From: Chloroflexota bacterium
Lineage (GTDB): Bacteria > Chloroflexota > Anaerolineae > Anaerolineales > Villigracilaceae
Direction: 5' to 3'
NCBI GenBank assembly: GCA_016191845.1
Contig: JACPVF010000007.1
Span: forward strand, 558,001-622,000
Length of the DNA: 64,000 nucleotides
The first letter of the stretch is position 1, and every line of letters starts with the position of its first letter. The position numbers and the translations under genes are program-made. Under the pieces are notes generated by a model. That model ran no database searches, was not told the DNA's origin, and saw only the letters and a list, made by a program, of their open reading frames with translations. Shown here piece after piece: positions 19,504 through 22,584 of the stretch.

Positions 19504-19636
19504 TTCAACCTCCAGGTTAACTTAATTGTAGAGGGTTTGGAGAGAGATGGCAAGCAAGCGAGATGGCGATTCAGCGCGCCGGCGAGTCAACGAATCAACG
19601 GGTATACTTGGCATACCCTACCAAAAGGAGACTTTC

Positions 19637-21439
19637 ATGACCCTTTCTGCTCCGCGCTGGGATATGACCAACGCCTATCCTTCCCTGGAATCGACCGAAT
19701 TCAAAGCCGCTTTCGAGGATTTCAAGCGTCAGATCGCCGACCTCGGAACTTTCTTTGACGAACAAATTGCCGCCACTACCCCCAAGACCTCCGCCAAGAA
19801 GTTGGCAGCCCTGCTTGGCGAAGTGGTGGACCGTCTCAACGCCGTCCAGACCCAGGCCTACACGCTCGGCCCGTACATCTCCTGCCATGTGGACACCAAC
19901 TCTCGCGATGCCGTGGCCCTGAAGGCTGAGTCCGAGTTCGAGCAGGCCTACCTGCCGCTGCGTCAGGTCTTCGTCCGCTTCAAGGGCTGGTTGAGCAAGT
20001 TGACCCCGTCGCTGGATAAGATCATTGCCCTGAATCCGACCGCTGTGGCGCATGCTTTCATCATCAAGGAGAACGCCGATCAGAGCAAGTACCTGATGAG
20101 CGAGGCCGAAGAGGCCCTGGCCGCCGAGTTGAGCCTGAGCGGTGGCAGCGCCTTTGGCAAACTGCAAGGGACCGTCACCTCCCAGTTGAGCGTTGATTTT
20201 GAGTTGGACGGCAAGGTTGAGAAGATGCCCATGCCCGCCCTGATCAACCTGCGCTCGCATCCCGACGCCGAGGTCCGCCGCCGCGGCTACGAGGCCGAGA
20301 ACAAGGCCTGGGAGAGCGTCAAGGAAGTGCTGGCCGCCTGCATGAACGGTGTCAAGGGCGAGACCATTGCCCTCAACAAACGCCGTGGACGCGAGGACGC
20401 CCTGCACTCTTCCCTCGACGCCGCCCGCATCGACCGCGCCACGCTCGAAGCGATGATGAGTGCCATGGAGGGGTCCTTCCCGATGTTCCGCAAGTACTTC
20501 AAGAGCAAGGCCAGCAAGCTCGGCAAGGAACGCCTGGCCTGGTGGGACATCTTCGCCCCGATGGGCAAGACCGACAAGGTCTATTCCTTCGAGGAAGCCC
20601 GTGATTTCATCATCGAGAACTTTGGCCAGTTCTCGCCCGACCTGGCGGCCTTTGCCAAACGCGCCTTCGACAACCGCTGGATCGACGCCGAACAACGCGA
20701 CGGAAAGCGTGGCGGCGCGTACTGCACCGAACTCCAGGCATTGAAGGAAAGCCGCATCCTGTGCAACTTCGACGGCTCGTTCGACCAGGTCAGCACCGTG
20801 GCCCACGAGCTGGGACACGCCTTCCATAACGAGTGCGCCTACCAGGCGGGAAAGACCGTCATGCAGCAGGTCACGCCCATGACCCTGGCCGAGACCGCCT
20901 CCATCATGTGCGAGACCATCGTCACCGAGGCTGTGCTCAAGCAGGTCACCGATCCACAAGAGGAACTGGCCGTGCTCGAGTCGCAGATCAGCGGCGCCGC
21001 CCAGGTCATCGTGGACATCTATTCGCGATTCCTGTTCGAGAAGGAAGTCTTTGAGCGCCGCACCCATGCCGACCTGACCGCCGACGAGCTGAACGAGATC
21101 ATGGAACGCGCCCAGAAGGCCACCTATGGTGACGGCCTGGACGAGTCTCAACTCCAGAAGTTCATGTGGACCTGGAAGCCGCATTACTACTCGCCCGCCC
21201 TGGCTTTCTACAATTACCCCTACGCCTTCGGCCTGCTCTTTGCCACCGGCTTGTACGCCATCTACCAGCAGCGCGGATCCGAGTTCGTGGCCGATTACAA
21301 GAACCTGCTGGCCTCCACCGGCGAGGCCTCAGCCGCCGACCTGGCCGACCGCTTTGGCATCGACATTCGTACCCGCAAATTCTGGGATGACAGCCTGTCC
21401 ATCATCGGCAAGCGCATCGAGCGCTACTGCGAGATCTAG
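19637..21439 (+). CDS. M3-family oligoendopeptidase (PepF-like)
   Basis: This zinc metallopeptidase of 600 residues degrades medium-length peptides in the cytoplasm. The HELGH zinc motif is at 390-394, with a downstream MTLAETASIMCET helix that supplies the third ligand and a C-terminal YYSPALAFYNYPYAFGLLFA signature shared by the PepF/M3B group. The ATG at 19637 follows AAAAGGAG; a longer start at 19547 adds an unconvincing N-terminus. It is followed after 4 nt by the rhodanese-like gene, so the two are probably co-transcribed. A second M3 peptidase lies at 35698-37416. Confidence 0.94.
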   Translation: MTLSAPRWDMTNAYPSLESTEFKAAFEDFKRQIADLGTFFDEQIAATTPKTSAKKLAALLGEVVDRLNAVQTQAYTLGPYISCHVDTNSRDAVALKAESEFEQAYLPLRQVFVRFKGWLSKLTPSLDKIIALNPTAVAHAFIIKENADQSKYLMSEAEEALAAELSLSGGSAFGKLQGTVTSQLSVDFELDGKVEKMPMPALINLRSHPDAEVRRRGYEAENKAWESVKEVLAACMNGVKGETIALNKRRGREDALHSSLDAARIDRATLEAMMSAMEGSFPMFRKYFKSKASKLGKERLAWWDIFAPMGKTDKVYSFEEARDFIIENFGQFSPDLAAFAKRAFDNRWIDAEQRDGKRGGAYCTELQALKESRILCNFDGSFDQVSTVAHELGHAFHNECAYQAGKTVMQQVTPMTLAETASIMCETIVTEAVLKQVTDPQEELAVLESQISGAAQVIVDIYSRFLFEKEVFERRTHADLTADELNEIMERAQKATYGDGLDESQLQKFMWTWKPHYYSPALAFYNYPYAFGLLFATGLYAIYQQRGSEFVADYKNLLASTGEASAADLADRFGIDIRTRKFWDDSLSIIGKRIERYCEI

Positions 21440-21443
21440 TCCC

Positions 21444-21911
21444 ATGAAACAAACCGTATTGCGCATCCTGGTGGTCGCGCTGTTGTTGTTGACGCTCACG
21501 GCCTGCGGGGGTGGCGCGTATCCCAACCCGTACCCCAACGGCGCGACCCTCCAGCCCACACGCATCCCCACCCCGTCTTCGGTGGATACCGTGCCCCGCA
21601 TCACGATCGAGGATGCCAAAGCCGCTTTCGACGCCAAGACCGCTGTCTTTATCGACGTACGTGGCACCGAGAATTACAACCAGGTCCATATTGCAGGCGC
21701 GCTCGATATCCCCACCGACCAACTCGCCCGTCTGACCGATTACGACCGCGACACGCTGATCATCACCTACTGTACCTGAACGAATGAGCATACGAGCGCC
21801 GGTGCGGCGCTCCTCCTGTACCAGCAAGGTTTCACCCGCGTGTATGCCCTGCTCGGCGGACTTAACCCGTGGATCGCGGCGGGCTATCCGACCGAATTCG
21901 TTCAGCCATGA
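21444..21911 (+). CDS. Candidate selenocysteine-containing rhodanese-like lipoprotein (in-frame TGA at 21777)
   Basis: Reading from ATG 21444, a lipoprotein signal (LTLTAC, Cys21) and a Pro-rich linker lead to a rhodanese domain: VFIDVRGTENYNQVHIAGALDIP at 68-90, then LIITYCT at 105-111. Codon 112 is TGA. The same frame continues TNEHTSAGAALLLYQ, GFTRVYALLGGLNPW and AAGYP, the normal second half of a rhodanese, to a TGA at 21909-21911 that overlaps the next ATG as ATGA. The predicted product is 155 residues with Cys110 and Sec112 in the active-site loop. A SECIS-like hairpin follows the TGA. Alternatives are a Cys-to-stop mutation or a sequence error. A standard call would end at 21779 and give a 111-residue fragment without the full active site. 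Confidence 0.82.
21794..21812 (+). promoter_or_regulatory. Candidate bacterial SECIS element
   Basis: GAGCGCC (21794-21800) pairs perfectly with GGCGCTC (21806-21812) around the loop GGTGC. The loop begins 21 nt after the in-frame TGA (21777-21779). Bacterial SECIS hairpins lie just 3' of the UGA, with about 16-37 nt to the apical loop and a G among its first two loop bases; this one meets each point. It lies inside the rhodanese coding sequence, as expected. Confidence 0.75.
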
Positions 21912-22276
21912 GCATCTACGCCATCGACCATGTCCAACTCTCCATGCCCAAGGACGAAGAGGATAAGGCGCGCGCCTTTTACGTCGGCCTGTTGGGTTTT
22001 AGTGAAACACCCAAGTCTGCCGAGTTGGCAGGGCGCGGTGGTGTCTGGTTCGAACAGGGACAAGTCAGATTGCACATGGGTGTCGAAGTGGATTTTCGTC
22101 CACTCAAGAAGGCACACCCCGCTCTGCTGGTCGATGACTTGTCTGCGCTGATCCTATATCTACAAGCCAACGGTTGGGAGGTGTCCACCTCCCAACCGCC
22201 GCTGGATGGTTACCGCCGTGCGCATGTGCTGGATCCCTTCGGCAATCGGCTTGAATTGATGGAGAAGTTGGGATGA
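21908..22276 (+). CDS. VOC/glyoxalase-superfamily protein
   Basis: This 122-residue single-domain protein has the vicinal-oxygen-chelate fold. IDHVQLSMPKDEEDKARAFYVGLLGF opens it and HVLDPFGNRLELME closes it. These hold the first His and the last Glu of the usual metal site. VOC proteins include glyoxalases, dioxygenases and antibiotic-resistance proteins; the substrate cannot be told. Both ends overlap neighbours by four bases (ATGA at 21908 and 22273), so translation is coupled to the rhodanese-like gene before it and the cupin after it. Confidence 0.88.
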   Translation: MSIYAIDHVQLSMPKDEEDKARAFYVGLLGFSETPKSAELAGRGGVWFEQGQVRLHMGVEVDFRPLKKAHPALLVDDLSALILYLQANGWEVSTSQPPLDGYRRAHVLDPFGNRLELMEKLG

Positions 22277-22584
22277 CCGAACTGCACGTCATCCCCTGGA
22301 CCCTGGACTCGGCTCCGTCCGAGGCGGCGCTTCGGCGTCTGCTGGCGGAGGAGGGACTCTCGGCCTATGCCTGGTCCAATGCCCCATACGAGGTCTATGC
22401 CCCGCACACACATGACTATAACAAGGTCATCTACGTGGTGCGCGGATCGATCACCTTTCAATTGATCGAACTCGGCGTGTGTCACACGCTCAAGGCGGGT
22501 GCCCGCCTCGATCTGCCCGCGGGCACCGTCCACGCCGCGGAGGTGGGCGCGGATGGCGTGCTCTGTCTCGAGGCGCATCGATAA
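22273..22584 (+). CDS. Small cupin-domain protein
   Basis: The product has 103 residues. The first cupin motif is seen as PHTHDYNKVIYVVRGSITFQL and the second as GARLDLPAGTVHAAEVG, giving a likely metal site of His residues in a single beta-barrel. Such cupins are dioxygenases, isomerases or binding proteins; the reaction is unknown. It is the last gene of a coupled set with the VOC and rhodanese-like genes and ends 36 nt before a strong terminator. Confidence 0.85.
   Translation: MTELHVIPWTLDSAPSEAALRRLLAEEGLSAYAWSNAPYEVYAPHTHDYNKVIYVVRGSITFQLIELGVCHTLKAGARLDLPAGTVHAAEVGADGVLCLEAHR

Follow-up and report, generated by a model that had tools for sequence, protein, structure and literature searches.

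The tables of PMC1088965 and PMC2398784 include rhodanese-type selenoproteins. The form that carries a Cys-x-Sec motif (CxU) is tabulated as 'Rhodanese-like domain-containing protein form 3' in PMC13188914 (2026), which assigns it to NF041203 and credits it to Zhang and Gladyshev 2005; it is also listed in PMC9312934. Proteins of NF041203 (rhodanese_LYCAU, 'rhodanese-related (seleno)protein') have a single rhodanese domain with CxU in the active-site loop. TsoB (NF045694, rhodanese/DsbD fusion-like) is likewise a rhodanese with Sec, but its model is 572 positions long and its two Sec residues are spaced otherwise (UxxxxU in PMC13188914). The thiosulfate sulfurtransferase GlpE (PDB 1gmx) has a shorter loop without CxU, and the VTT-domain/rhodanese proteins of Burkholderiales (e.g. 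UST56291.1, in which the VTT domain is annotated) have the rhodanese part after a membrane domain and Cys in place of Sec.

The gene described here lies in a window of 64,000 nucleotides from a Chloroflexota bacterium, on contig C8 of an 18-contig assembly (4.63 Mb, 99.17% complete). Its product is very probably a CxU rhodanese selenoprotein. It adds a divergent member to a recognized bacterial selenoprotein family and is not the first of its kind; an initial annotation had called it a probable new selenoprotein, which holds for the member but not for the kind, because CxU rhodaneses are already listed as NF041203 and in two reviews (PMC13188914, PMC9312934). A literature search by title and start of abstract, with subscription papers mostly outside it, found no report of a rhodanese selenoprotein from Chloroflexota.

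The reading frame occupies positions 21444-21911 of the forward strand (155 codons, terminal TGA at 21909-21911). It begins with MKQTVLRILVVALLLLTLTACGG, in which a signal peptide ending in a lipobox-like LTAC (Cys21) was recognized by inspection (21444-21506), and passes through a proline/threonine-rich linker into half a rhodanese domain, which reaches ITYCT and then a TGA at codon 112 (21777-21779). Cys110, at the position of the rhodanese catalytic cysteine, is encoded at 21771-21773, and the motif at the site is Cys110-Thr-TGA, with no other TGA inside the 155-residue frame. The same frame then runs on as TNEHTSAGAALLLYQQGF...GGLNPWIAAGYPTEFVQP to the terminal TGA, which shares bases with the start codon (ATG at 21908) of the following gene. 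The initial annotation had read the locus in just this way, as a lipoprotein signal and half a rhodanese interrupted by TGA two residues past Cys110, then the other half of the same fold and an ATGA overlap with the following gene; our translation agrees on each of these points. A gene caller that takes TGA only as a stop would truncate the protein at codon 112. All neighbors are on the forward strand: an M3-family oligoendopeptidase upstream (19547-21439; TIGR02290, 605.6 bits), the overlapping gene of the glyoxalase/VOC family (21908-22276), and a cupin-like small protein (22273-22584) whose Pfam scores are slightly under the cut-off.

Both the Pfam gathering score and the predicted fold place the read-through protein among the rhodaneses. 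PF00581 matched residues 55-145, on both sides of the TGA, with 54.1 bits (cut-off 22.2). An AlphaFold2 model in which Cys was substituted for Sec, built from an alignment of 39 sequences (that of the window and 38 from the loci described below), had a mean pLDDT of 89.2, and its top Foldseek matches in the PDB were rhodanese-domain entries. In the model, residue 112 lies in the loop that joins strand 105-109 to helix 113-127. Termination at this codon would cost the last 44 residues, and with them two helices (113-127 and 140-145) and strand 133-136. The active-site loop reads C110-T-U112-T-N-E-H-T-S, with U for the predicted Sec, so that a Cys-x-Sec pair stands where canonical rhodaneses have CRSGNRS.

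The read-through protein was matched in 233 of 396 genomes of the class at E<=1e-8, and the best 61 matches listed in that search each contained at least one in-frame TGA. We read 110 loci, of which 30 were returned by the search (the window's own included) and 80 were picked from its listed places; all but one (L106, which gave no usable match) could be aligned over the site. TGA aligned with codon 112 in 72 of these 109 loci, counting the window, although 72/109 is not an unbiased frequency because loci were taken best match first. Judged from these alignments, the in-frame TGA is more than a chance occurrence. These 72 loci are spread over 64 genomes, again including the window's, so that a base error is very improbable. 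At position 110 they have Cys in 66 cases and a second TGA in six (UxU, considered below). Three loci that are outside the 72 (L086, L100 and L101) have the TGA shifted by at least one residue, after CxxC- or RC-like motifs. In these three the TGA directly follows a Cys (e.g. YCSDC-TGA) and the core of the hairpin described below is mostly kept. L098 and L127 have no residue aligned to position 112. The other 32 loci include two with CxC (L104 and L105) and are otherwise, for the most part, canonical rhodaneses of the CRSGNRS type, which do not count as direct counterparts. Cys counterparts were also found on plasmids. When a related CxU protein (L184) served as the tblastn query, 51 plasmid records were matched, and the three that were read, from Caballeronia, Comamonadaceae and Cupriavidus, have YCSCPNE, YCDCPAE and YCVCPNE at the site, i.e. 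CxC in all three. Replacement of the predicted Sec by Cys in other lineages is a classical sign of a Sec/Cys pair, and TGA in the homologues together with Cys in others is the pattern by which bacterial selenoproteins are recognized.

A SECIS-like hairpin follows the TGA inside the coding sequence (21794-21812, forward strand). Its arms, 21794-21800 and 21806-21812, enclose the five-base loop GGUGC (21801-21805); in the window's hairpin only, the first and last loop bases can also pair, leaving GUG. The hairpin begins 14 nt past the UGA, and 21 nt separate the UGA from the five-base loop. The bacterial SECIS model quoted in PMC13188914 has a loop of 3-9 nt, a stem of 4-16 bp and a G in the first two loop positions, with a spacing of 16-37 nt (figure legend), and the seven pairs, GGUGC loop and 21-nt spacing found here all lie within it. 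On its own, the window stretch folded no better than shuffled sequences (z -0.29, 66 of 200 shuffles as good). Since single-sequence folding was not significant, the hairpin was judged by alignment-based tests. The 54 nt from the TGA onward align free of gaps, and the stem corresponds to columns 18-24 paired with 30-36. For codon and covariation counts, 68 of the 72 rows were used; L077 and L080 (short frames) and L051 and L052 (copies of L047) were left out. Codons 118-122 (21795-21809), which encode Ser118-Ala-Arg/Gly-Ala-Ala122, are nearly frozen as AGC, GCC, CGT, GCG and GCG, with a synonymous constraint of 1.04-2.33 bits, measured relative to codon usage in those 68 rows. Among the remaining conserved columns listed for residues 55-151, none exceeded 0.51 bits. 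Five of the seven stem pairs had changes on both sides, and there were 20 doubly changed cells compared to a mean of 7.0 in shuffled alignments (none of 500 shuffles as high) and 0-8 when the register of the hairpin was slid. RNAalifold independently proposed the inner five pairs. Pairing is lost at the two outer positions in 31 and 35 of the 68 rows, so only the five-pair core is general.

The genome that contains the window has the complete selenocysteine machinery expected of a bacterium that makes selenoproteins. The scores for selA (532.3 bits, curated cut-off 267.9), selB (326 bits, 242.25), selD (348.1 bits, 125) and tRNA-Sec (70.4 bits, 47) were all above their cut-offs, and ARAGORN called the last of these tRNA-SeC (tca). 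When the same four models were applied to 14 control genomes, selA was over the cut-off in one, selB in two, selD in two and tRNA-Sec in five, which makes the tRNA-Sec model the least specific of the four and not fully specific. Across the class, SelA was found at E<=1e-40 in 60 of the 64 genomes with the same-column TGA versus 320 of the 396 genomes of the class (Fisher p 0.003), a rough comparison in which the remaining class genomes were not all read for TGA, and a weak discriminator because SelA is common in the class. Three of the four TGA-bearing genomes without SelA have SelB over the cut-off. One of the four, 87% complete (G169), has SelB only, with neither SelA nor tRNA-Sec over the cut-off, and another, 70% complete (G292), has no SelA, SelB or tRNA-Sec over the cut-off. 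The host selD gene (L018; G000 C11:231350-232282) holds one in-frame TGA, in the context ACAG-TGA-ASK. SelD proteins carry Sec or Cys at this point; selD is a second probable selenoprotein gene of this genome.

We propose that the host SelA, SelB, SelD and tRNA-Sec would decode UGA codon 112 as selenocysteine, directed by the short coding hairpin, and on comparative grounds Sec insertion at this codon is almost certain. TGA is nevertheless a normal stop in this DNA, where it terminates 14 of the window's 48 long non-overlapping ORFs, and codon 112 could on that ground be a true stop, or a sequencing or assembly error, leaving a pseudogene or a 111-residue fragment. This is highly improbable given the same-column TGA in the 72 loci, the conserved protein half beyond it with its synonymous constraint and covariation, and the 44 residues that the fold would lose. 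An open frame alone would equally suit a TGA read as some other amino acid (e.g. Trp in an altered code) or passed by non-specific read-through, but the use of TGA as a terminator by those 14 ORFs, the presence of Cys and not Trp at the site in the nearest TGA-less homologues, and the complete Sec system of the genome leave this with hardly any probability. Pseudogene, base error and Trp recoding were rejected on conservation and the Cys counterparts. Selenocysteine in a 155-residue product, as the initial annotation had proposed, is therefore strongly backed by comparison, through the machinery, the same-column TGA, the hairpin and the Cys homologues. That annotation had named two checks, a search for the Sec machinery and an alignment of homologues; SelA, SelB, SelD and tRNA-Sec are all present in this nearly complete genome, and homologues carry predicted Sec or Cys at position 112. 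The Cys-x-Cys relatives it had mentioned do exist, in L104, L105 and the three plasmid proteins.

What such a selenoprotein does is less certain than that it is made. The product would be a membrane-anchored, probably extracytoplasmic, single-domain protein of the rhodanese family. Cys110 might attack sulfane sulfur or a disulfide, Sec112 would resolve the intermediate to a selenenylsulfide with release of sulfide or thiol, and a thioredoxin-like partner could then re-reduce the Cys110/Sec112 pair. The activity would be that of a thiol/selenol oxidoreductase or a persulfide (sulfane-sulfur) reductase and not of a plain thiosulfate:cyanide sulfurtransferase. Several relatives bear on this proposal. 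In L095 a CxU rhodanese is followed in one frame by a thioredoxin-fold domain (PF13462, 57.1 bits), which we take to be DsbA-like, and in L165 a UxU rhodanese is followed in one frame by multihaem cytochrome c domains. The rhodanese comes after a Na+/H+ exchanger segment in L147 and after a zinc ribbon in L074; the membrane part that precedes it in some relatives is presumably VTT-like. By eye, 13 of 19 rows of the same family have a lipoprotein-type N-terminus (a hydrophobic stretch ending in A/G-Cys), and the other six (L029, L041, L050, L053, L062 and L065) have a hydrophobic N-terminal segment without A/G-Cys. The fusions and these N-termini suggest a redox role at the membrane, on the outer side in the case of the window protein. 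The selenoprotein could instead be a conventional sulfurtransferase, or a perselenide-carrying protein that delivers selenium. The rhodanese fold, PDB matches with names such as thiosulfate sulfurtransferase, and a score of 55 bits with the GlpE model point in that direction, and a reference title in PMC5877670 names a selenium-substituted rhodanese as a possible selenium delivery system. Although GlpE and the window protein share the fold and the position of the catalytic Cys, the GlpE cut-off of 102 was missed and the window loop, in the phmmer alignment, is two residues longer, with CxU and no canonical CRSGNRS-type sequence. The fusions to thioredoxin-fold and multihaem cytochrome domains, one case each, also count against a sulfurtransferase or delivery protein, and an exported position would be odd for supplying a cytoplasmic SelD. 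We consider such a role possible but unlikely. The redox mechanism, with Cys110 as the nucleophile and Sec112 as the resolving partner, is given only about an even chance because the redox fusions are single cases and the neighbors are uninformative.

An oligoendopeptidase-type frame lies upstream of the CxU rhodanese in all 13 same-family loci inspected by eye. The order oligoendopeptidase - CxU rhodanese seen in the window (19547-22584) is thus kept, and VOC- or cupin-like frames are found downstream in several loci. No functional link of these neighbors (oligoendopeptidase, VOC, cupin) to the rhodanese is evident, and they give no hint of redox or sulfur chemistry.

The best NCBIfam match of the window protein was NF041203, at 86.8 bits, below the cut-off of 115. 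It shares with that family the single rhodanese domain and the CxU motif in the active-site loop (C110-T-U112) and differs in its lipoprotein-type N-terminus and in TYCTU instead of LYCAU. NF041203 matched all 39 members of the alignment used for the model at E<=1e-5. When ten other CxU or UxU proteins were scanned, five passed the cut-off (L178, L202, L143, L188 and L145) and five missed it (L139, L166, L197, L191 and L064). The TsoB model gave 27.3 bits, nowhere near its cut-off of 805. For a tree, 80 of the 119 loci from named genomes (described below) were submitted; 172 rhodanese domains remained once duplicates and incomplete domains had been removed. The tree, made from 111 columns with a midpoint root only and a bootstrap that had not fully settled, divides 139 rows (127 CxU, nine UxU and three without TGA) from 33 canonical rows with a support of 100/98. 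The window protein and all other CxU and UxU rows lie on the same side of this branch as the rows that pass the NF041203 cut-off, apart from the canonical rhodaneses, which places it in the CxU clade in the wide sense. The TGA-less rows on that side are the CxC proteins L104 and L105 and the long-branched L082.

A protein-pattern scan of named genomes, in which Cys codons were written in the Sec column, found no relative. As that scan was fruitless, the collection of named genomes was scanned with a DNA pattern that combines codons 110-112 with the hairpin core. The pattern had at least 119 matches, and the 119 obtained comprise 112 CxU and seven UxU; since it requires codon 110 to be TGT, TGC or TGA and codon 112 to be TGA, these motifs are built in, and the results of the scan are only the surrounding rhodanese frame and the share of UxU. 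For all 119 matches, a loose regular expression recognized a rhodanese signature before or after the match in its frame, and the 80 frames that were read are also rhodanese-like by eye. Among the 80 matches listed were Chloroflexi, Acidobacteria, Deltaproteobacteria, Nitrospirae, Rokuibacteriota, Gemmatimonadetes and others. One of them (L204; JABARH010000001.1, Anaerolineales bacterium) encodes the same protein as L023, which is from a genome of the window's own family. When codon 110 was left unconstrained, the window's genome (4.63 Mb) had a single occurrence of the TGA-hairpin pattern and none of its backward control. TGA plus a coding hairpin is thus a simple DNA signature for CxU rhodaneses, and because it finds at least 119 matches and the 119 obtained are all in rhodanese-like frames, NF041203 could be widened at once.

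The least expected result belongs to the relatives and not to the window gene. The catalytic Cys codon is also TGA in six of the 72 class loci (L061, L064, L066, L073, L097 and L099) and in seven of the 119 loci from named genomes (L140, L165, L166, L197, L218, L241 and L242). These UxU loci have TGA at the catalytic Cys codon and at the +2 codon, with one downstream hairpin. L140 and L197 are from Chloroflexota and L166 is from Thermodesulfovibrionia. The words 'UxU' and 'diselenide' are absent from the main text of PMC13188914. Literature searches limited to titles and the start of abstracts found no UxU rhodanese, and the match for UxU with selenoprotein concerned neurodegenerative disease. 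It is somewhat doubtful, though only a little short of an even chance, that CxU rhodaneses make up a large, widespread superfamily of membrane thiol/persulfide oxidoreductases of which NF041203 is only a part, and in which UxU has repeatedly arisen as a diselenide pair served by one SECIS hairpin. A repeated change from Cys to Sec would serve as a natural experiment for the contribution that Sec makes to the rhodanese loop. On the tree, the nine UxU rows require seven changes of label, at least four of them on supported branches, so UxU was apparently gained or lost on more than one occasion.
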